Assembly: GCA_008933635.1 (NCBI GenBank)
Contig: WBUQ01000029.1
Span: 1-37,355, forward strand
DNA length: 37,355 nt
Source: Desulfobulbaceae bacterium
Lineage (GTDB): Bacteria; Desulfobacterota; Desulfobulbia; Desulfobulbales; Desulfocapsaceae
Reading direction: 5' to 3'
Shown here: positions 5,096-22,366 of the stretch, piece by piece
Layout: every line of letters begins with the position of its first letter
How positions within the stretch are numbered: the first letter of the stretch is position 1
Made by a program: the position numbers and the translations under genes
The notes under the pieces: generated by a model
Seen by the model: only the letters and a program-made list of their open reading frames with translations
The model's database searches: none
Told to the model about the DNA's origin: nothing

Positions 5096-6382
5096 TCAAC
5101 CGTGAAACATCTTGTACTGCGCAATATAGACAAAGATTCCGGCGAAGTAGCCAAGAGCAGCCAGCCCGCCTATCTTCCTCGCGTACCAGAAGAAATGGAT
5201 CTTCTCGAGGCCCATGGCAGCAACACCGGCCGCCGACCCGATGATCAGGATGGAACCGCCGGTACCGGCGCAGTAGGCCATGAACTCCCAGAGAAAACTG
5301 TCGGTCGGATAGGTCGCCATGTCGTACATCCCCATCGAGGCGGCGACCAGCGGTACGTTATCGACGACGGCGCTGGCCAGTCCGATCAGCGTGACAATGA
5401 TATCCTGGCGACCGACAACCTTATCGAGCCACTGGGCGAGGGCGGTGAGGATGTGGGTGTGTTCGAGGGTGGCGACCGCGAGCAGGATGCCGATGAAAAA
5501 CACAATGCAGCTCATGTCGATCCGGGTGAGGGCGGCGACCAGCGTCAGATGCTCCTTGTCCTCATGCTCCTTTTTGCGATGCAGCAGCTCGCCGACCAGC
5601 CACAGGATTCCCAGGCCGAAAAGGATCCCCATGAAAGGGGGGAGATGGGTCACGCCTTTGAAAACCGGTACGGCAATCAAGGTACCAATACCCATGCAGA
5701 ACATCAGGTTCTGTTCGAACGATGTTGTTTTGATATCATTGCCATTGTCGACTGAGGGCGGGCTGACGACCTTTTTCCCCCGCAGAGTGAGGGAGAGAAG
5801 TGTCAGAGGGATGACGAGACACGCCAGCGACGGCAGGAAGACCCCTTTCATGATCGCCAGGGTGGTAATCTGCCCGCCAATCCACAGCATGGTGGTTGTC
5901 ACATCGCCGATAGGGGTCCAGGCTCCGCCCGCATTAGCGGCGATGACAATAATACCGGCAAAGAACAGCCGGTCTTCATGACGGTCCAGTAGCTTCTTCA
6001 TCAGCGAAATCATGACGATGGTGGTGGTCAGGTTGTCAAGGATCGAACTGAGGAAAAAACTGACGAAACCGACCAGCCAGAGCAGCGAGGTGATTTTCGT
6101 GGTCTTGATGCGCGAGGTTATGACATAGAAGCCATTGTGGGCATCGACCACTTCGACGATGGTCATGGCACCCATCAGAAAAAAGACGATCTGGGCGGTG
6201 GCCGCCACCGACTCAGTCAGGTTTTCTGCAACCAGGTGGTGATCGCCGCTCAGCAGGGCGTAGACCGTCCAGAGCAGACCGGCACCGATCAGTGCCGAAG
6301 CCGATTTGTTGACCCCGAGCGGATGTTCGAGGGCAATGGATGCGTAAGCAAGTACAAAGATCAAGACCAGGGCGGTTAGCAT
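5096..6382 (-). CDS. nhaD: NhaD-type Na+/H+ antiporter (cassette A)
   Basis: This 428-residue membrane protein has about 12 hydrophobic segments and NhaD/ArsB-fold family motifs: LDNLTTTIVMISLMKKLLDRHEDRLFF, ANAGGAWTPIGDVTTTMLW and DNVPLVAASMGMYDM. NhaD proteins exchange cytoplasmic Na+ (or Li+) for external H+. The ATG at 6382 is preceded by AAGGAG at 5-base spacing. It opens cassette A and lies 111 bases downstream of the kinase gene with no sigma-54 promoter in that gap, so it may be transcribed from the promoter ahead of the kinase. An antiporter paired with a probable Na+-coupled anion carrier suggests it returns the sodium that enters with the anion. The paralogue is at 13326-14612. Confidence 0.92.
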   Translation of the reverse strand: MLTALVLIFVLAYASIALEHPLGVNKSASALIGAGLLWTVYALLSGDHHLVAENLTESVAATAQIVFFLMGAMTIVEVVDAHNGFYVITSRIKTTKITSLLWLVGFVSFFLSSILDNLTTTIVMISLMKKLLDRHEDRLFFAGIIVIAANAGGAWTPIGDVTTTMLWIGGQITTLAIMKGVFLPSLACLVIPLTLLSLTLRGKKVVSPPSVDNGNDIKTTSFEQNLMFCMGIGTLIAVPVFKGVTHLPPFMGILFGLGILWLVGELLHRKKEHEDKEHLTLVAALTRIDMSCIVFFIGILLAVATLEHTHILTALAQWLDKVVGRQDIIVTLIGLASAVVDNVPLVAASMGMYDMATYPTDSFLWEFMAYCAGTGGSILIIGSAAGVAAMGLEKIHFFWYARKIGGLAALGYFAGIFVYIAQYKMFHG

Positions 6383-10668: not shown

Positions 10669-12147
10669 CTATTTGAGAAACACCTCCATGCCCATGAGCG
10701 GCCAGATGACGGCAACCGCAAGATATACGACAACCATCAGCATGATGCTCGCGGCAATACCGTACTTGAAGAATTCGCCGGTGGTAAATTGCTTGGAGTT
10801 ATAGGCAATGGCATTCGGTGCTGCGCCGATCAGCAGGATGAACGGCATGCCGGCGGTCATCAGTGCAGAGAAGAAAATGACCTCTCCGGCCACACCGAGA
10901 TAGGGCGCGATGACCAGGGCCACCGGCAGCGAGATGGCGATCGCCGCCACGTTCATGATAAAGTTGGTCATGATCATGACGAAGAAGGCCATGCCAAGGA
11001 TGAAGACGACTGCCGGGGCCGTCTTGAACAGCGCCAGCCAGTTGACCGCCAGCCACTTCGCCGCCTCGGTCTGCCACAGGCAGAAGCCGATGGACATAGC
11101 GCCGCCGAAGAGCAGGATGATGTTCCACGGGATGTCTTCAAGATCCTCGACCTTGAGGATATTGAGGATGAAGAACAGCAGCGTCGAGGACAGCAGGATC
11201 GCCGTCTTGTCGATGGATTTCAGGGCCGGCACCCAGTTCTTCAGGGCGATCAGCAGGATGACCGAAAGGGTGATGACCAGGGTCAGGATTTCCTTGCGGC
11301 TCCAGCCGCCGAGTTCGTTGTACATCCGCCTGGCCTTTTCCTTCAGACCGGGGATCACGGCCTTTTCCGGCTTACAGACCAGCAGCATGAAACCCCAGAG
11401 CATGAAGACCATCAGCCAGCCGATGGGCGCCATGTAGTAAGAGAGCTCGAAGAAACTGATCTCCTTGCCGGTCATCTCCTTGAAGAAACCGATCGCCACC
11501 GCGCCGCGGGCGGCGCCGAGCAGGGTGATGATCGATCCCGCACCGGCAACGTAGGCCATGCCGATGAACAGGCCCTTGCCGAACTTGGTCGGCCGGTCGT
11601 CATCGGAGTAGAGGGCATTGATCGCCAGCAGCAGCGGGAACATCGTCGCCGCCACAGCGGTGTGGGCCATCAGATGGGTCAGCGCGGCGGTCATCACGAA
11701 GCAGCCGAGGTAGATCATGCTGGTCTTCTCGCCGACGATCGACAGCATCTTGTAGGCCATCCGCTTGGTCAGGCCGCTCTTGGTGAAGACCAGGCCGATG
11801 ACGATCGAACCGAAGATGAAGAGGACCGAGGGATCCATGAAGTCCTTGAAAGCCACCTCGGGCTTTCTGATAAGGTACATCGCTTGAGCCACGCCGATGG
11901 CGATGCCGGTGACGCCGATCGGCAACACCTCGAATATCCACCAGGTGGCAGCCAGGGCAAAGACCGCCAGCGCCCCTTTGCCCTCCTTGGTGAGAACGAA
12001 ATGATTGCCCTGGGGATCGACAGCATCCGGCCAGGCTGGAGCATAGTAAATGATAAAGAACAGGGCGACGCCCAGGACCAGGAAGAACGCCCGCTTCCAG
12101 TCGAACGGGGCTTTCGCCTCCGCAACTTCGGTATATGTTGATGACAT
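10669..12147 (-). CDS. DASS/SLC13-family anion carrier (cassette B)
   Basis: This inner-membrane carrier of about 492 residues is a close paralogue of the protein at 2447-3928. It keeps the same altered hairpin motifs, AHT (MAHTAVAATMFP) and MNV (NFIMNVAAIAISLP), so the change is not a random decay. The start at ATG 12147 (MSSTY) is favoured because AAAAGGG lies 9 bases upstream; ATG 12156 directly abuts that ribosome site, exactly as in copy A. Differences between the copies cluster in the N-terminal tail, loops and the final helices (for example MGMEVFLK against MGLPILLAK at the end), consistent with the same transport chemistry and perhaps different affinity or regulation. The substrate is unknown. 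Confidence 0.88.
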   Translation of the reverse strand: MSSTYTEVAEAKAPFDWKRAFFLVLGVALFFIIYYAPAWPDAVDPQGNHFVLTKEGKGALAVFALAATWWIFEVLPIGVTGIAIGVAQAMYLIRKPEVAFKDFMDPSVLFIFGSIVIGLVFTKSGLTKRMAYKMLSIVGEKTSMIYLGCFVMTAALTHLMAHTAVAATMFPLLLAINALYSDDDRPTKFGKGLFIGMAYVAGAGSIITLLGAARGAVAIGFFKEMTGKEISFFELSYYMAPIGWLMVFMLWGFMLLVCKPEKAVIPGLKEKARRMYNELGGWSRKEILTLVITLSVILLIALKNWVPALKSIDKTAILLSSTLLFFILNILKVEDLEDIPWNIILLFGGAMSIGFCLWQTEAAKWLAVNWLALFKTAPAVVFILGMAFFVMIMTNFIMNVAAIAISLPVALVIAPYLGVAGEVIFFSALMTAGMPFILLIGAAPNAIAYNSKQFTTGEFFKYGIAASIMLMVVVYLAVAVIWPLMGMEVFLK

Positions 12148-12165
12148 TTTTTCCATCCCTTTTCT

Positions 12166-13325: not shown

Positions 13326-14612
13326 TCAGCCGTGCATCAGCCTGTACTGGACGATGTAGACGATGATGCCGGAGAAGTAACCGAGGGCGGCCAGGGCCCC
13401 GATCTTGCGGGCGTACCAGAAGAAGTGGATCTTCTCGAGGCCCATCGCCGCCACGCCGGCGGCCGAACCGATGACCAGCATCGAGCCGCCGGTCCCGGCG
13501 CAGTAGGCCATGAACTCCCAGAGGAAGCTGTCCTGCGGATAGACGGCCATGTCGTACATGCCCATCGAGGCGGCGACCAGCGGTACGTTGTCGACGATAG
13601 CGCTGAGGATGCCGATCAGGGTGACGATGATCTCCTGACGACCGACCGCCTTGTCGAGCCAGCCGGCCAGGGCAGTGAGGATATGGGTATGTTCGAGGGT
13701 GGCCACCGCCAGCAGGATGCCGATGAAGAAGACGATGCTGGCCATGTCGATACGGCTCAGCGCCGCCACCAGCCGCAGGTGCCGCCGCTTGTCCTCGTGG
13801 GTGTTGCGATGGACGATGTTGCCGACCAGCCAGATGACGCCGAGGCCGAAGAGGATACCCATGAACGGCGGCAGGTGGGTGATGGTCTTGAAGATCGGCA
13901 CGTTGATCAGGGCGCCGACGCCCAGGCAGAACATCAGGTTCTGCTCGAAGGTCGAGGTCTCGACCCCATGGCCGCAGGTGCCGCTCTTCGGGGCGATGAC
14001 CTCCTTGCCCCGCAGGGTGAAGGAGAGGAAGATCAGCGGCACGATCAGACAGGTGAAGGAGGCCAGAAACACGCCCTTGATGATGGCCATCGTGGTGATC
14101 TGGCCGCCGATCCACAGCATCGTCGTGGTCACGTCGCCGATCGGCGACCAGGCCCCCCCGGCGTTGGCGGCGATGACGATGACGCCGGCGAAGAACAGCC
14201 GGTCCTCATGGCGATCGAGCAGCTTCTTCATCAGCGAGACCATGACGATGGTGGTGGTCAGGTTGTCGAGGACGGCGCTGAGGAAGAAGGTGACGAAGCC
14301 GACCAGCCAGAGCAGCGAAGTGATTTTGGTGGTCTTGATCCGCGAGGTGATGACGTTGAAGCCGTTATGGGCGTCGACGACCTCGACGATGGTCATCGCC
14401 CCCATCAGGAAGAAGATGATCTGGGCCGTGGCGGCCAGCGATTCATGCAGATTCTCGGTAACCTTATGGGTATCGCCGCTCATCAGGGCATAGACCGTCC
14501 ACAGCAGGCCGGCGCCAACCAGCGCCGAGGCGGATTTGTTGACCTTGATCGGATGCTCAAGGGCAATGCAGGCATAGGCAAGAATAAAAATCAGGACCAG
14601 GGCGGTTAACAT
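13326..14612 (-). CDS. nhaD: NhaD-type Na+/H+ antiporter (cassette B)
   Basis: This 428-residue membrane antiporter is a close paralogue of the protein at 5096-6382, with the family motifs LDNLTTTIVMVSLMKKLLDR, ANAGGAWSPIGDVTTTMLW and DNVPLVAASMGMYDM. The start is ATG 14612 with AAGGAG upstream; the frame is open to 14714 but that extension would overlap the sigma-54 promoter. It is the first gene after the divergent regulatory region and thus the first gene of the whole minus-strand locus. Differences from copy A are mostly in the cytoplasmic loop around residues 215-235, where copy B carries a Cys/His-containing stretch (SGTCGHGVET). Confidence 0.92.
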   Translation of the reverse strand: MLTALVLIFILAYACIALEHPIKVNKSASALVGAGLLWTVYALMSGDTHKVTENLHESLAATAQIIFFLMGAMTIVEVVDAHNGFNVITSRIKTTKITSLLWLVGFVTFFLSAVLDNLTTTIVMVSLMKKLLDRHEDRLFFAGVIVIAANAGGAWSPIGDVTTTMLWIGGQITTMAIIKGVFLASFTCLIVPLIFLSFTLRGKEVIAPKSGTCGHGVETSTFEQNLMFCLGVGALINVPIFKTITHLPPFMGILFGLGVIWLVGNIVHRNTHEDKRRHLRLVAALSRIDMASIVFFIGILLAVATLEHTHILTALAGWLDKAVGRQEIIVTLIGILSAIVDNVPLVAASMGMYDMAVYPQDSFLWEFMAYCAGTGGSMLVIGSAAGVAAMGLEKIHFFWYARKIGALAALGYFSGIIVYIVQYRLMHG

Positions 14613-14709
14613 GATCACTCCTTTTGATAGCGTGCAACGTTGGTGAAAATGACGAATGTTCTCAACGAATCCTTTCGCCCGATGAAACTGCGCGTACTGA
14701 ACGACTGAG

Positions 14710-14725
14710 AGCAAAACCGATGCCA
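14710..14725 (-). promoter_or_regulatory. Sigma-54 (-24/-12) promoter ahead of cassette B
   Basis: On the minus strand the sequence is TGGCATCGGTTTTGCT, with GG and GC separated by the required 10 bases and TTGCT at -12. Only the last base of TGGCAC differs. Transcription would start near 14699, about 87 bases ahead of the nhaD ATG. It faces the same direction as the promoter at 8397-8412, so both cassettes appear to be under sigma-54 control. Confidence 0.75.
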
Positions 14726-14792: not shown

Positions 14793-15091
14793 TCCCTCGG
14801 CCTTGCAGTGGGCGATCAGCTGAAACGGACTGTTCCCATGTGTTCTTTTTTGTTCACACGCCCCGTCACCTCCGGCCGCCCTGCCCCCGGCACCCCGACA
14901 ACTGCCCCCGTCTCCGTTCTTTGTCAATAACTATCCATGGTATTTGCGACATAGCTACAGCTTCCCGCCGGATCGGCGCCAGACCGACCAGAAAATATCG
15001 AAACGTTATGAAACATTCCCCGCAACAACCCTCTTGCATTTTCTCCGAAACATGTCCCGTTTTTCCATTTTTCTTCACCCGAATGAGTGGT

Positions 15092-15100: not shown

Positions 15101-15139
15101 CGTCATCCTCCCCGGTGGCCGGCAGCGGCCTCCACGACA

Positions 15140-15275
15140 GGGCGGACAAGCCGAGTTCCGTCCGGGCGGACGGGAGCGGGGGAACCAATGTTCAGGGGCG
15201 TATCGCCGGCACTGCCGGCGTAGAGCAAACTCTTCGGCTCGAGCCCGTCAGCTAACCTCGCAGGCATCGAAGGGA
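15140..15275 (+). ncRNA. c-di-AMP riboswitch (ydaO/yuaA class) in the kup leader
   Basis: The conserved blocks of this class are present in order: GCGGGGGAACCA (15176-15187), a GGGGNGNAUC-like block (GGGGCGTATC, 15195-15204), and CGTCAGCTAACCTCGCAGGC (15246-15265). Supporting stems are CCGTCCG/CGGACGG (from 15158) and CGCCGGC-ACT-GCCGGCG (from 15204). The class senses cyclic di-AMP and typically switches off K+ uptake and osmoprotection genes when the messenger is high. The next gene is the K+ transporter kup, an expected target. After the aptamer GGGAAAG (15272-15278) can pair with CTTTCCC (15300-15306), enclosing AAGGAGG; no U-tract follows, so control could be at translation or by Rho. Confidence 0.88.
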
Positions 15276-15331
15276 AAGACGACTCTGTGGCAAGGAGGGC
15301 TTTCCCGTTCTCAGCGCCACAGGAGCAGTCC

Positions 15332-17260
15332 ATGTCCTTGTCAGGTCACCTCACCGGAGCCAGCGGAAACGCGTCGACTCCAAGCTTTACCGCACCACAT
15401 CACGGCACCGGCGCCCTCGCCCTGGCGGCCCTCGGCATCATCTACGGCGACATCGGCACCAGTCCGCTGTATACGATCAAGGAATGCTTCTCCGGCAAGC
15501 ACGGTCTTGACCCGAACCCGGTCAACATCCTGGGCGTGATGTCGATGGTCTTCTGGTCCCTTATCATCGTCGTCAGCATCAAATATGTCATCTTCGTCCT
15601 GCGGGCCGACAACAGGGGCGAAGGCGGGACCTTTTCCCTGCTCGCCACCCTCAGCCCGGTACTGCGCGGTGACAACCACAGGTGGACCGTTCTCACCATC
15701 CTCACTGCCACCGGCGCCTCCCTGCTCTATGGCGACGGCGTGATCACCCCGGCCATTTCGGTACTCTCAGCCATTGAAGGTCTCAACATGGCAACCGATG
15801 CGGCGAGCCGCTACGTCGTGCCGATCACCTTCGCCATCCTGGTTTCGCTGTTCCTGGCCCAACGCCACGGCACGGCAGTCATCGGCAGGATTTTCGGACC
15901 GGTGATGATCGTCTGGTTCACCTCCATCGGCCTGCTCGGTCTCAGGGCCATCGTCGGCCGACCGGACATCCTCGCCGCCCTCAACCCGCAGTATGCATTC
16001 ACCTTCTTTGCCGTCAACCACCTGCACGGCATCGTCGCCCTCGCCTCGGTCGTCCTCTGCATCACCGGCTGCGAGGCCCTCTACGCCGACATGGGCCATT
16101 TCGGCCGATTCCCGATCCGCCTGACCTGGTACGACATCGTCCTGCCAGGCTTGATGCTCAACTATTTCGGCCAGTGCGCCCTGCTGCTGCAGGACCCGAA
16201 CATCGCCAGCGTCAACCCGTTTTATGCCCTGGCCCCGAAGGCCTTGCTCTACCCGCTTGTCGGCCTGGCAACCATGTCCACCATCATCGCCTCCCAGGCA
16301 ATGATCTCCGGTGTCTATTCCCTTACCCAGCAGGCCGTGCAGCTCGGTTTCGTGCCGCGCATGCGGATCGTCCACACTTCCGCCCGCGCCAAGGGACAGA
16401 TCTATATGCCGACGGTCAACTGGATGGTGATGCTGGCATGCCTGACCCTGGTCCTGGTATTCAGGGAGTCGGGCAAACTGGCCGCCGCCTATGGCTTTGC
16501 CGTCACCGGCACGATGACCATCACCTCGATCATGTATTTCCAGGTCACCCGCCACAAATGGCGATGGCCGCTCTGGCAGTGCGCGGCGCTGGTGGGGCTG
16601 TTCCTCTTCTTCGACACCTCGTTCCTCGGCGCCAACATCCTGAAGATATTCGACGGCGGCTGGATCACCATCTGCATCGCCACCTTCATCGCCGCCAGCA
16701 TGATCACCTGGCGGGACGGCCGGGAACTCCTCCGCAAGCACTACAGCCTGATGCTGCTGCCAACCGATGTCTTCCTGCAGGACCTCCAGGAGTACAGCCC
16801 GTCGCGAACTGCCGGCACGGCCGTCTTCATGTCCATCTCCCCCGAGGGCATCCCCCACACCCTCCTTCACCACCTGAAACACACCGAGGCCCTGCACGAG
16901 CGGATCCTGCTGCTCTCGGTGCTTTCTGCGGAAACACCAACGGTCGATGATCATGAGCGGGTGGGGCTGGAAGACCTCGGTCAGGGGTTTTTCCGGGTCA
17001 AGGCCAGGTATGGTTTCATGGAGACCCCGAACATGACCGGCATCATCGAGCAGCTCAGCCGCAAGGGCTTGCCGGTTGATATCTATTCCACATCCTTCTT
17101 CCTCGGCCGCGAAACGCTGTTTTCCACCGGAGAAAGCGCGATGGCGCAATGGCGCAAGCTGCTGTTCATCTTCATGTCCCGCAACTCGTGGAACGCCACC
17201 TCCTTCTTCGGCCTGCCGCCGGATCGCGTCGTCGAACTGGGAAACCAGGTGCAGTTGTGA
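15332..17260 (+). CDS. kup: Kup-family potassium uptake transporter
   Basis: This 642-residue protein has an N-terminal membrane domain of about 12 hydrophobic segments (residues 30-450) and a cytoplasmic C-terminal domain, the Kup/HAK layout and length. The signature ALGIIYGDIGTSPLYTIKECF is at about residues 32-52, followed by YGDGVITPAISVLSAIEGL. Kup moves K+ inward, probably with H+. The start is ATG 15332 with AGGAG 6 bases upstream; a GTG at 15287 is in frame but would lie within the riboswitch expression platform. The c-di-AMP riboswitch in its leader predicts repression of K+ uptake at high c-di-AMP. The downstream permease gene begins about 140 bases later and is probably transcribed separately. 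Confidence 0.95.
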   Translation: MSLSGHLTGASGNASTPSFTAPHHGTGALALAALGIIYGDIGTSPLYTIKECFSGKHGLDPNPVNILGVMSMVFWSLIIVVSIKYVIFVLRADNRGEGGTFSLLATLSPVLRGDNHRWTVLTILTATGASLLYGDGVITPAISVLSAIEGLNMATDAASRYVVPITFAILVSLFLAQRHGTAVIGRIFGPVMIVWFTSIGLLGLRAIVGRPDILAALNPQYAFTFFAVNHLHGIVALASVVLCITGCEALYADMGHFGRFPIRLTWYDIVLPGLMLNYFGQCALLLQDPNIASVNPFYALAPKALLYPLVGLATMSTIIASQAMISGVYSLTQQAVQLGFVPRMRIVHTSARAKGQIYMPTVNWMVMLACLTLVLVFRESGKLAAAYGFAVTGTMTITSIMYFQVTRHKWRWPLWQCAALVGLFLFFDTSFLGANILKIFDGGWITICIATFIAASMITWRDGRELLRKHYSLMLLPTDVFLQDLQEYSPSRTAGTAVFMSISPEGIPHTLLHHLKHTEALHERILLLSVLSAETPTVDDHERVGLEDLGQGFFRVKARYGFMETPNMTGIIEQLSRKGLPVDIYSTSFFLGRETLFSTGESAMAQWRKLLFIFMSRNSWNATSFFGLPPDRVVELGNQVQL

Positions 17261-18656: not shown

Positions 18657-19286
18657 ATGGCCTTCACCCTGTTCCCCAAATCGATCAAATTCTTCGAACT
18701 GCTGATCCGCCAGAATACGATACTCCAGGATGTGGCCGGCGAAGTCCTCCAGATTTTCGAGGACTTCGGCACCGTCGACGAGGCGTGCAAGCGCATCAAC
18801 CTGAAGGAAGTCGAAGGCGACGAGCTGTGCCGGGACATCTCCCACCAGCTGTCCCAGACCTTCATCACCCCCATCGACCGCGAGGACATCTACCGTCTCA
18901 ACCTGGCCCAGGAAGACTCGATCAACTTCTTCAAGAGCATCGCCACCCGCACCCGGTTCTCAGGCATCTCCCACATCCGTTTTCCGGCGAAGAGGATGAT
19001 GCGCAACGTCAACACAATGACCGGCTACACCGGCGAGATGCTCAGGGCCCTGCAGGCCAAGCAGGAAGTCGGCGGGCTGATCCGTGAAATCGGGAGTCTC
19101 AAGGGCGAGTGCGAAATGCTGCTCAGCACCGGCCTCTCCGAGTTGCAGGATGTCGAGATCAGCGAACTGAAGAGCGTCGTCGACATCATCAAATGGATCC
19201 AGGTCTACGACCGGATCGAGCAGGTCATCGAACGGATCGACGACCTGGCCGACGCGATCGAGGAAGTGGTACTGAAAAATGCTTGA
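18657..19286 (+). CDS. DUF47 (PhoU-like) accessory protein of the PiT transporter
   Basis: This 209-residue all-helical protein is of the DUF47/TIGR00153 family (MAFTLFPKSIKFFELLIRQNTILQDVA..., ending in a helix YDRIEQVIERIDDLADAIEEVVLKNA). DUF47 proteins resemble PhoU and are commonly encoded with Pit phosphate transporters, whose activity they are thought to control. The ATG at 18657 has AGGAG upstream. Its last codons overlap the PiT start by 8 bases, implying translational coupling. Confidence 0.92.
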   Translation: MAFTLFPKSIKFFELLIRQNTILQDVAGEVLQIFEDFGTVDEACKRINLKEVEGDELCRDISHQLSQTFITPIDREDIYRLNLAQEDSINFFKSIATRTRFSGISHIRFPAKRMMRNVNTMTGYTGEMLRALQAKQEVGGLIREIGSLKGECEMLLSTGLSELQDVEISELKSVVDIIKWIQVYDRIEQVIERIDDLADAIEEVVLKNA

Positions 19287-20289
19287 TATCCCTCTGCTCC
19301 TTGTCATCATTGTCATCGTCGCCCTGGTCTTCGATTTCACCAACGGAGCTCACGACTGCGCCAACGCCATCGCCACGGTGGTGTCGACCAAGGTCCTGTC
19401 GCCGCGGGTGGCGGTCACCATGGCGGCCGTCCTCAACCTCGTCGGCGCCCTGCTCGGCAGCGAAGTCGCCCACACCCTGGGCAAGGGGATCGTCAACACC
19501 GAGGTGGTGATGGGCAGCCAGATCCTGGTGCTGGCCGCGCTGGTCGGAGCCATCGCCTGGAACCTGATCACCTGGTATTACGGTTTTCCCTCATCCTCCT
19601 CCCATGCCCTGATCGGCGGCCTGATCGGCGCCGCGGTCACCCATGCCGGCTACTCAAGCCTCAATGGCGTCAGCATCTTCAAAAAAGTCATTCTTCCGCT
19701 CATCCTGTCGCCTCTCGCCGGATTTTTTGTCAGTTATGTCATCATGTTCCTTCTGCTGTTCCTTTTCTGTCGAGCCAATCGGCGCACCGTGAACAGGAAC
19801 ATCAAGCACCTTCGGATCCTCTCGGCGGCATTCATGGCCACCAGCCATGGTCTGAACGACGCCCAGAAGACAATGGGGGTGATCGCCCTGGCCCTTTTCC
19901 TGTTCCACCGGATTGATACGATCTATATCCCGTTCTGGGTGAAGCTCTCCTGTGCGCTGGCCATGGCTGTCGGCACCGCTGTTGGCGGATGGAAGATCAT
20001 CAAGACCATGGGCCACCGGATCTTCAAGCTCGAAATGGTGCACGGCCTCGCCGCCGAGACCTCGGCAGCCCTGGTCATCACCGGCGCCTCGCTGGTCGGC
20101 GCGCCGATCTCCACCACCCACACCATCACCGCCTGCATCTTCGGCGTCGGCTCGACCAAGAGGCTCTCCGCCGTCCGCTGGGAGCTGGCCGCCAACCTGG
20201 CGGTGGCCTGGGTCGTCACCATCCCGGCGGCCGCCGTCATCGCCGGCCTGAGTTACCTGCTGCTGCACGTATTTGGCGCAGCGGGTTGA
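19279..20289 (+). CDS. pit: PiT-family inorganic phosphate transporter
   Basis: This 336-residue membrane protein carries the two inverted PiT signature repeats: FTNGAHDCANAIATVVSTKVLSPR near the N-terminus and ATSHGLNDAQKTMGVIALALF in the middle, with GFPSSSSHALIGGLIGA and VGAPISTTHTITACIFGVG in the matching hairpins. The length is typical of short bacterial Pit proteins. It imports phosphate, usually as a metal-phosphate complex with H+ or Na+. It overlaps the DUF47 gene by 8 bases. An 89-base gap follows with only a small GCAGA/TCTGC stem and no clear terminator. Confidence 0.94.
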   Translation: MLDIPLLLVIIVIVALVFDFTNGAHDCANAIATVVSTKVLSPRVAVTMAAVLNLVGALLGSEVAHTLGKGIVNTEVVMGSQILVLAALVGAIAWNLITWYYGFPSSSSHALIGGLIGAAVTHAGYSSLNGVSIFKKVILPLILSPLAGFFVSYVIMFLLLFLFCRANRRTVNRNIKHLRILSAAFMATSHGLNDAQKTMGVIALALFLFHRIDTIYIPFWVKLSCALAMAVGTAVGGWKIIKTMGHRIFKLEMVHGLAAETSAALVITGASLVGAPISTTHTITACIFGVGSTKRLSAVRWELAANLAVAWVVTIPAAAVIAGLSYLLLHVFGAAG

Positions 20290-20378: not shown

Positions 20379-20954
20379 ATGCGTTACCGTCGTCACCCTG
20401 CCATTGCCCGCCGCTGGCGCATCCTGGCGCTGGTCGGCATCCTGCTCTGCCCGGCGTGCGAACGTCAGGCGCCCGCGCCTCCGCAGACCTCTGCATCCGG
20501 CGAGATCCGCACCTTCACCGGGACCTGGACCACGATCGGCCACCGCCGGACCGTGCACCTCGGCGGAGACCGCCAGGCCTCGATTTTCAACTTCACCGGC
20601 TCGATGCTGCTCGGCGGTCCGCATCGGCTCAAGCGGGGTTTCAAGGCCGAGGTGATCGGCCTTGCCGACAGCCAGAGCGGCATGCAGGCTCGCAGCGTGT
20701 GGACTGACGAAGAGGGAGAAAAGGTGTTCAGCGAATTGCACGGTGCGGCGGCAGGTCCCGACCAGCCGATCACGGGACGGTTCATCGGCGGCACCGGCCG
20801 ATACGCCGGAGTATCCGGCGAGTACTCGTTCAAATGGCTGCGGCTGGTGGACACCGAGGACGGAGAAGTGAGCGGCCGCGTGGTCGACCTGAAGGGATGG
20901 GCCCGTCTCGGACCGGCAGAGGTCCGCCAACCGGCAGCAGGAGGCCAGCAATGA
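20379..20954 (+). CDS. Exported beta-barrel protein, possibly a lipoprotein (allene-oxide-cyclase-like)
   Basis: This 191-residue protein has a basic N-terminus, a hydrophobic segment ending LVGILLCPAC (a poor lipobox, Cys27), and a soluble domain of short beta strands with the motif FIGGTGRYAGVSGEYSFKW, typical of the allene-oxide-cyclase/dirigent eight-stranded barrel fold; such barrels bind small hydrophobic ligands. The start at ATG 20379 has AGGAAGG upstream. Its stop overlaps the start of the DASS carrier (ATGA at 20951-20954), so the two are translated together. The exact role is unknown. Confidence 0.65.
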   Translation: MRYRRHPAIARRWRILALVGILLCPACERQAPAPPQTSASGEIRTFTGTWTTIGHRRTVHLGGDRQASIFNFTGSMLLGGPHRLKRGFKAEVIGLADSQSGMQARSVWTDEEGEKVFSELHGAAAGPDQPITGRFIGGTGRYAGVSGEYSFKWLRLVDTEDGEVSGRVVDLKGWARLGPAEVRQPAAGGQQ

Positions 20955-22366
20955 AACGAGAGGCCTCAGCTGTCCGCAAATCCGTCACGAAGATCGCACC
21001 GTTCGCGCTGGCTGCCGGCATCTGGCTTGCCCCGATCCCCGAAGGGCTGACCAGCCAGGCCTGGCACCTGTTCGCCATCTTCGCGGCCGCCATCTTCGCC
21101 GTCATCATCAATGCCCTGCCACTGCTGACAGCGGCGCTGCTGGCCGGCTCGACCGCGGTGCTGAGCGGCACCCTCGACCCGGTCAAGGTCTTCGGCGGTT
21201 TCGCCAACGCCAGCGTCCTGCTGGTGGTCGTGGCCTTCCTGGTCGCCCAGGCCGTGGTCAAGTGCGGGCTGGGCAGACGGATCAGCCTCTACGTGGTCAG
21301 CATGTTCGGCAAATCCACGCTGGGGCTGGCCTACAGCATCTTCATCACCGACGCCCTGATCGCCCCCGGCTTCCCGAGCAACACCGCCCGCGGGGGCGTG
21401 CTGTACCCGATCATCCTGGCCCTCTCCCAGAGCAGCGGCTCCGTTCCCGGCGATGAAACTCAACGCCGGCTCGGCGGCTATCTGATGTTCTGCGGCATGG
21501 CCAGTCTCAGCGTCTCGTCGGCCCTGTGGCTCACCGCCACCTCGGCCAATCCCATCGGGGTGTCGCTGGCCGCGGAACAAGGTCTTGCGGTCAATTTCGG
21601 TTCCTGGCTGCTGGTAGCCTCGGTCCCGGCGCTATTCACCATCGGCCTGCTGCCGCTCCTGCTTTTCAGGCTCTTTCCGCCGGGCATCTCCGCCACCCCC
21701 GATGCGCCTTGGGCCGCCCGCGAGTCGCTGCGCACCATGGGCCCGCTGTCCCGCGACGAGAAGATCACCGCGGTGGTCTTCGGCCTGATGGTGATCGCCT
21801 GGATCTGTGCCGGCACCCTCGGCCTCAACCTCACGGCGGTGGCCATCGCCGGTCTCGGCACCCTGCTCGCCACCGAGGTGCTGACTCTGGATGACATCTA
21901 CCTGCAGGGCGGGACGCTTGCCACCTTCCTCTGGCTGGCGGTGCTGTTCGCCCTGAGCGGCCAGCTCAACGAGCTGGGCTTCATGGGCCATGTCGGCGAA
22001 CATCTGGCCTCGATGCTCGGGGGGCTTTCCTGGCCCATCGCCTACGTTGTCCTGCTGCTGCTCTACGTCGCCATGCACTACATGTTCGTCAGCCAGTCGG
22101 CCCAGGTCCTGGCCCTGCTCGGGGTCTTCCTCGACGTCGGCATCCAGACCGGCGTACCGGTTCACCTGATGGCCTTCGCCCTGCTTTTTGCCAGCAGCTA
22201 CTTTTCGACCCTGACCCCCCAGGGCGGCAGCCAGAACGTCATCTTCGTCGCCAGCGACTACCTGACCCAGCGCGAGCTGTACCGTCTGGGCCTCTTGACC
22301 ACGATCTTCTGCACCCTGGTATTTCTGCTGATCGGCACGCCATGGATCCTCTGGGTCGGACGATGA
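20951..22366 (+). CDS. DASS/SLC13-family anion carrier (CitT/DIT1-like)
   Basis: This 471-residue membrane protein has about 12 hydrophobic segments. It contains FPSNTARGGVLYPI with an intact SNT and, in the second half, MHYMFVSQSAQVLALLGVF, a pattern seen in the CitT/DIT1/TtdT branch that exchanges di- and tricarboxylates. It differs from the two cassette carriers in motifs and length and is only distantly related to them. The ATG at 20951 is well placed after AGGAGG, overlapping the previous stop. Likely substrates are dicarboxylates such as fumarate, malate or succinate, but this is inferred from the subfamily only. Confidence 0.88.
   Translation: MKREASAVRKSVTKIAPFALAAGIWLAPIPEGLTSQAWHLFAIFAAAIFAVIINALPLLTAALLAGSTAVLSGTLDPVKVFGGFANASVLLVVVAFLVAQAVVKCGLGRRISLYVVSMFGKSTLGLAYSIFITDALIAPGFPSNTARGGVLYPIILALSQSSGSVPGDETQRRLGGYLMFCGMASLSVSSALWLTATSANPIGVSLAAEQGLAVNFGSWLLVASVPALFTIGLLPLLLFRLFPPGISATPDAPWAARESLRTMGPLSRDEKITAVVFGLMVIAWICAGTLGLNLTAVAIAGLGTLLATEVLTLDDIYLQGGTLATFLWLAVLFALSGQLNELGFMGHVGEHLASMLGGLSWPIAYVVLLLLYVAMHYMFVSQSAQVLALLGVFLDVGIQTGVPVHLMAFALLFASSYFSTLTPQGGSQNVIFVASDYLTQRELYRLGLLTTIFCTLVFLLIGTPWILWVGR

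Follow-up and report, generated by a model that had tools for sequence, protein, structure and literature searches.

How a c-di-AMP riboswitch might govern potassium uptake in a relative of the sulfate reducers, and by what kind of expression platform, is the question raised by the kup leader in the 37,355-nt stretch of DNA analysed here (the window). A ydaO/yuaA riboswitch had been proposed at nt 15140–15331 ahead of kup, and the covariance model search bore this out: with cmscan, RF00379 (ydaO/yuaA, c-di-AMP) matched with 85.8 bits (E = 8e-19), well over its curated gathering score of 38 bits, and the match spanned model positions 1–134 of 134, i.e. the complete model. It was the sole Rfam match within the window and the only RF00379 copy in the 4.55-Mb genome. 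The aptamer ended about 50 bases 5′ of the Kup ATG and so lies in the leader of a K+ gene; members of RF00379 are typical of the leaders of K+/osmolyte or cell-wall genes. A long-range pseudoknot between a loop and the 3′ tail is a feature of RF00379 aptamers known from crystal structures. The expected partners were present in the window (Table 1) and covaried among relatives (CCTCATCG/CGATGGGG, CTCTCA/TGAGAG, and CTCAACGG/TCGTTGAG); of the 72 leaders, 70 showed loop-tail complementarity over 6–8 bp, the partners being of several types and a minority of the matches a chance register. By covariance score, the aptamer is a genuine RF00379 riboswitch, for which binding of c-di-AMP is predicted by analogy with the family.

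Table 1. Predicted elements of the riboswitch, its expression platform and the kup gene in the window
Feature	Position (nt)	Strand	Basis
c-di-AMP (ydaO/yuaA) riboswitch aptamer	15139..15281	+	RF00379, 85.8 bits, complete model
Aptamer loop CTCTTCGG, pseudoknot 5′ partner	15230..15237	+	8 bp with 15267–15274
Aptamer 3′ tail TCGAAGGG, pseudoknot 3′ partner	15267..15274	+	GGG in common with helix A
Helix A 5′ strand GGGAAAG (candidate anti-sequestor)	15272..15278	+	position; shuffles in group f1 leaders
Candidate anti-Shine-Dalgarno strand CTCTGTGGC, helix B 5′ strand	15283..15291	+	pairs with 15316–15325 in the knot-blocked fold
Shine-Dalgarno-like 'decoy' AAGGAGG	15292..15298	+	GGAG pairs with CUCU once helix A is forced
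Helix A 3′ strand CTTTCCC	15300..15306	+	pairs with GGGAAAG
Helix B 3′ strand GCCACAGGAG	15316..15325	+	contains Shine-Dalgarno AGGAG, 15321–15325
kup, K+ uptake transporter, 642 aa from ATG 15332	15332..17260	+	PF02705, PF22776

The gene directly after the riboswitch encoded a Kup K+ transporter, as originally predicted; the protein was full-length, with the domains PF02705 (K_trans, E = 2.4e-181) and PF22776 (K_trans_C, E = 4.9e-49), and was encoded by the only Kup gene in the genome. A GTG at nt 15287 is also open in frame, but it lies inside the sequestor and lacks a Shine-Dalgarno (SD) sequence of its own; the ATG was therefore preferred. No promoter was recognised for the kup leader. Elsewhere in the same window, four transporter genes of the CitMHS/Na_sulph_symp type (nt 5096–6382, 10669–12156, 13326–14714, and 20834–22366) and a Pit-type phosphate transporter gene with a PhoU_div gene (nt 18657–20289) were observed. 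In the genome collection, the nearest Kup proteins were those of Desulfoprunum sp. (79% identity), Desulfopila aestuarii (79%), and Desulfobulbaceae MAGs. Desulfoprunum and Desulfopila belong to Desulfobulbales, now placed in Thermodesulfobacteriota; the host is thus a member of Desulfobulbales, and deltaproteobacterial in the older sense of the name.

A host that makes c-di-AMP had also been implied, and at the level of gene presence this fits the genome, in which two genes for DAC-domain (PF02457) proteins were found; such genes are frequent among Deltaproteobacteria (PMC7288161). The stronger match (150.2 bits), possessing the motif GTRHRAAIG and followed directly 3′ by a YbbR/CdaR-like gene (named by eye), is by its sequence a CdaA-type diadenylate cyclase. 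The second protein (481 residues, 45.2 bits; L003, G000:C187:10983-14330) has RYN replacing RHR, which makes its activity doubtful; weak-scoring DAC proteins of similar size were widespread in the family. The usual CdaA motif reads HDGA; among L002 (G000:C216) and L184–L191, the CdaA of most of these relatives reads HDGG and that of L185 HDGA, with RHR intact. A search of the genome for a PgpH-type phosphodiesterase gave no 7TM-7TMR_HD match, and an NrnA/DhhP-like DHH-DHHA1 ORF was present (read by eye).

The segment from the aptamer tail to kup contained the parts of two competing helices. GGGAAAG, CTTTCCC, and AAGGAGG were located as in the original prediction; AAGGAGG is followed after 22 bases by the real AGGAG, which in turn is 6 bases 5′ of the ATG. 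Overlooked earlier was helix B, in which CTCTGTGGC pairs with GCCACA(G)GAG, crossing helix A and covering the real SD. The CUC within the anti-SD strand, kept in most f1 relatives (f1 being the family group of the window within Desulfobulbales), is complementary to both the GGAG of AAGGAGG and the real GGAG, while the GGG of the tail is common to the aptamer pseudoknot and helix A. AAGGAGG had been described as decoy-like; its location stands, and it probably has a function as an anti-anti-SD, for in the alternative structure modelled here the anti-SD strand is paired with it.

Judged from the sequence and from folding models, the riboswitch quite probably represses kup translation by hiding the SD. 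At low c-di-AMP, the emerging tail GGGAAAG would pair with CTTTCCC to form helix A, which would put the decoy GGAG onto the anti-SD CUCU; with the anti-SD strand so occupied, the real AGGAG would be free and Kup would be made. At high c-di-AMP, the bound aptamer would keep the tail TCGAAGGG in the pseudoknot with the loop CTCTTCGG, thereby taking the GGG from helix A, and CTCTGTGGC would then pair over the SD, burying it and halting Kup synthesis. High c-di-AMP signals ample K+ in the bacteria studied, and a shut-off of K+ uptake would be the presumed physiological role here as well. The switch in the window joins a known riboswitch family with a platform that is probably of the translational OFF type as modelled, and connects c-di-AMP with K+ uptake in sulfate-reducer relatives.

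Among known systems, B. subtilis kimA and B. thuringiensis kdpFABC resemble the window in aptamer family, K+ transporter target, and presumed OFF direction, the B. thuringiensis kdp riboswitch being a transcriptional OFF switch (PMC6488665). Both terminate transcription intrinsically, whereas in the window no terminator was found and the SD is the apparent target. Another close analogue is the C. glutamicum nlpC riboswitch, for which translational control was measured and said to be the first for the class; it has no terminator, and a toggle was proposed in which CTCC pairs with either an upstream GGAG or the GGAG of the ribosome binding site (PMC9960051). The toggle predicted in the window is essentially equal and likewise would act on translation, but nlpC is an actinobacterial gene for a cell-wall peptidase, and its toggle is a hypothesis from one sequence, whereas the window type is based on covarying recurrence in many kup leaders. 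The kup leader offers a concrete and mutable model for translational c-di-AMP control, of which nlpC was the only measured case in the literature read. The type of target had been regarded as known in Gram-positives; known it is, but not limited to them, since c-di-AMP riboswitches for kup, ktr, trk, and kdp are predicted in several phyla including Proteobacteria, as summarized from earlier surveys in PMC6488665. These predicted switches share with the window the aptamer, the target gene, and Gram-negative hosts, and the sections of that paper that list them give no account of the platform for the phylum of the window. In the library searched, no paper was found on c-di-AMP riboswitches and potassium in Desulfo- taxa.

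The same riboswitch could instead act on transcription, through an unrecognised or Rho-dependent terminator or through polarity after blocked translation. Precedent exists, as B. subtilis ydaO and B. thuringiensis kdp use intrinsic termination (PMC6488665; PMC9960051) and strong terminators made of a hairpin and a U-run occur in several kimA leaders within the same order. Nevertheless, no terminator-like site was observed between nt 14900 and 15420, a second scan likewise detected no intrinsic terminator in this leader, and the sole long hairpin of the leader ends on the SD and not on a U-run; the platform is thus other than a plain terminator, as had been proposed, and transcriptional action is unlikely. 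The genes following 72 RF00379 leaders included 42 kup, 17 kimA-like, and 3 ktrB-like genes. A rough scan found no terminator in 35 of the 42 kup leaders and a hairpin with a U-run in the other 7, versus a strong hairpin with a U-run in 9 of the 17 kimA-like leaders, which have the same aptamer. The platform may therefore follow the gene. The kimA-like leaders concerned include L005, L012, L013, L015, L036, L144, and L145, with the hairpin just 3′ of the aptamer.

Free-energy folding preferred the OFF hairpin even when the tail was free; because this hairpin dominates, the equilibrium openness of the SD was nearly equal with a free and a blocked tail (0.146 vs 0.134). Such folding being uninformative, helix A was tested by comparison with dinucleotide shuffles of the platform and by forcing. 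Since OFF is favoured with a free tail, ON would have to arise kinetically or with the aid of the ribosome or other factors, and the translational model therefore leans on a presumed co-transcriptional order of folding. Helix A outperformed shuffles at p < 0.05 in 9 of 11 f1 leaders, 6 of 13 f12 leaders, and 4 of 14 other leaders; for the window alone, p was 0.056 for helix A and likewise for helix B. The SD strand duplex alone was weak against shuffles (p < 0.05 in 1 of 11 f1 leaders), and the hairpin taken whole and the pairing column by column are both better evidence than this duplex. With the tail blocked as in the bound aptamer, mean SD openness was 0.07, 0.06, and 0.12 in the three groups, compared with 0.19, 0.26, and 0.27 when the platforms were shuffled; once helix A was forced, it rose to 0.25, 0.35, and 0.41, with an increase in 33 of 38 leaders. 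In the window the SD was not opened by forcing helix A (0.22 against 0.25), because pairs from bases after the ATG occupy it. Both folds recur across relatives, but the window taken alone gives borderline values for the two of them and no freeing of the SD in the forced ON fold.

SD positions and start codons in the leaders were assigned by hand, and because the MAFFT alignment moves the SD of the window by one column, pairs were counted by hand anchoring. The layout was repeated in kup leaders of the same family: CGAAGGGAAAG came first, then a strand with CUC, then purines that include GAG and stand directly before CUUUUCCC, and lastly GGAG and ATG; the kup leader of Desulfopila aestuarii DSM 18488 (L045) also has an RF00379 switch. 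The same plan was observed in another family of the order, with AGCCUC:GAGGCU as helix A (GAGCCC:GGGCUU in one member) and CUCC opposite the SD GGAG, whereas GGGUAGA:UCUAUCC was the helix A type of other orders; the sequence of helix A, GGGAAAG:CUUUCCC in the window, therefore varies. When a single register was fixed for the outer stem that covers the SD, each column was paired in 7 to 11 of the 11 leaders, and pairing was kept through double changes from UA to AU (L035) and from GC to AU (L035 and L011); in the window this stem is GAC with GUC, shifted by one in register. Parts of the inner stem varied in sequence between leaders with pairing mostly kept. As the leaders are related, these counts are supportive but not independent.

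Since helices A and B of the window cross and have no bases in common (Table 1), with linkers of 4, 8, and 9 bases that may permit it, they might coexist as an H-type pseudoknot hiding the SD in both states, with switching via pseudoknot stability. This is improbable: L006 and other relatives have a sequestor that draws on the CCC of the helix A 3′ strand, so that there the two helices exclude each other. The opposite direction, in which the ligand would promote helix A or expose the SD and so turn kup ON, is very improbable: although direction is not readable from sequence with certainty, no positive evidence for ON was found, the GGG in common between pseudoknot tail and helix A means that a bound aptamer should disfavour helix A, and known members are OFF switches (PMC6488665, PMC9960051). 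Loss of c-di-AMP binding by a degenerate, non-functional aptamer, as the deviation of block GGGGCGUAUC from the family consensus GGGGUGAAUC might indicate, is scarcely credible, because this block is common to most phylum leaders sampled, the score far exceeds the cut-off, and conservation extends to the platform.

Within the family, DAC genes were found in 88 of 93 genomes, RF00379 in 13, and Kup in 20; Kup was present in 9 of the 13 riboswitch genomes versus 11 of the 80 others (Fisher p = 7.5e-5, relatedness ignored). RF00379 occurred in 38 of 258 genomes of the order and in 52 of 395 genomes of the phylum sample. For Thermodesulfobacteriota as a whole, we would give an even chance to the generalization that kup switches are translational, that an SD mimic and the true SD are rivals for one anti-SD strand, coupled to the ligand via the shared pseudoknot tail, and that kimA leaders of the order, with the same aptamer, often use terminators, the platform following the gene.

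Other arrangements were seen among the leaders. In L017, L020, and L011, the switch precedes ktrB/trkA-like genes and the regulated ATG seems to start a short unrelated ORF ahead of the transporter gene, judged by eye at some 40–50 codons for L017 and L020; this ORF possibly encodes a leader peptide with translational coupling. In L140, RF00379 at nt 1501–1648 is followed by an ORF whose product, as judged by eye, looks like a cell-wall protein of the RlpA type. In L016 and L034, a tail AAGGGCA with a downstream complement (UGCCCUU in L016) lies ahead of a short ATGCAGCC ORF, apparently representing a further kind of platform.
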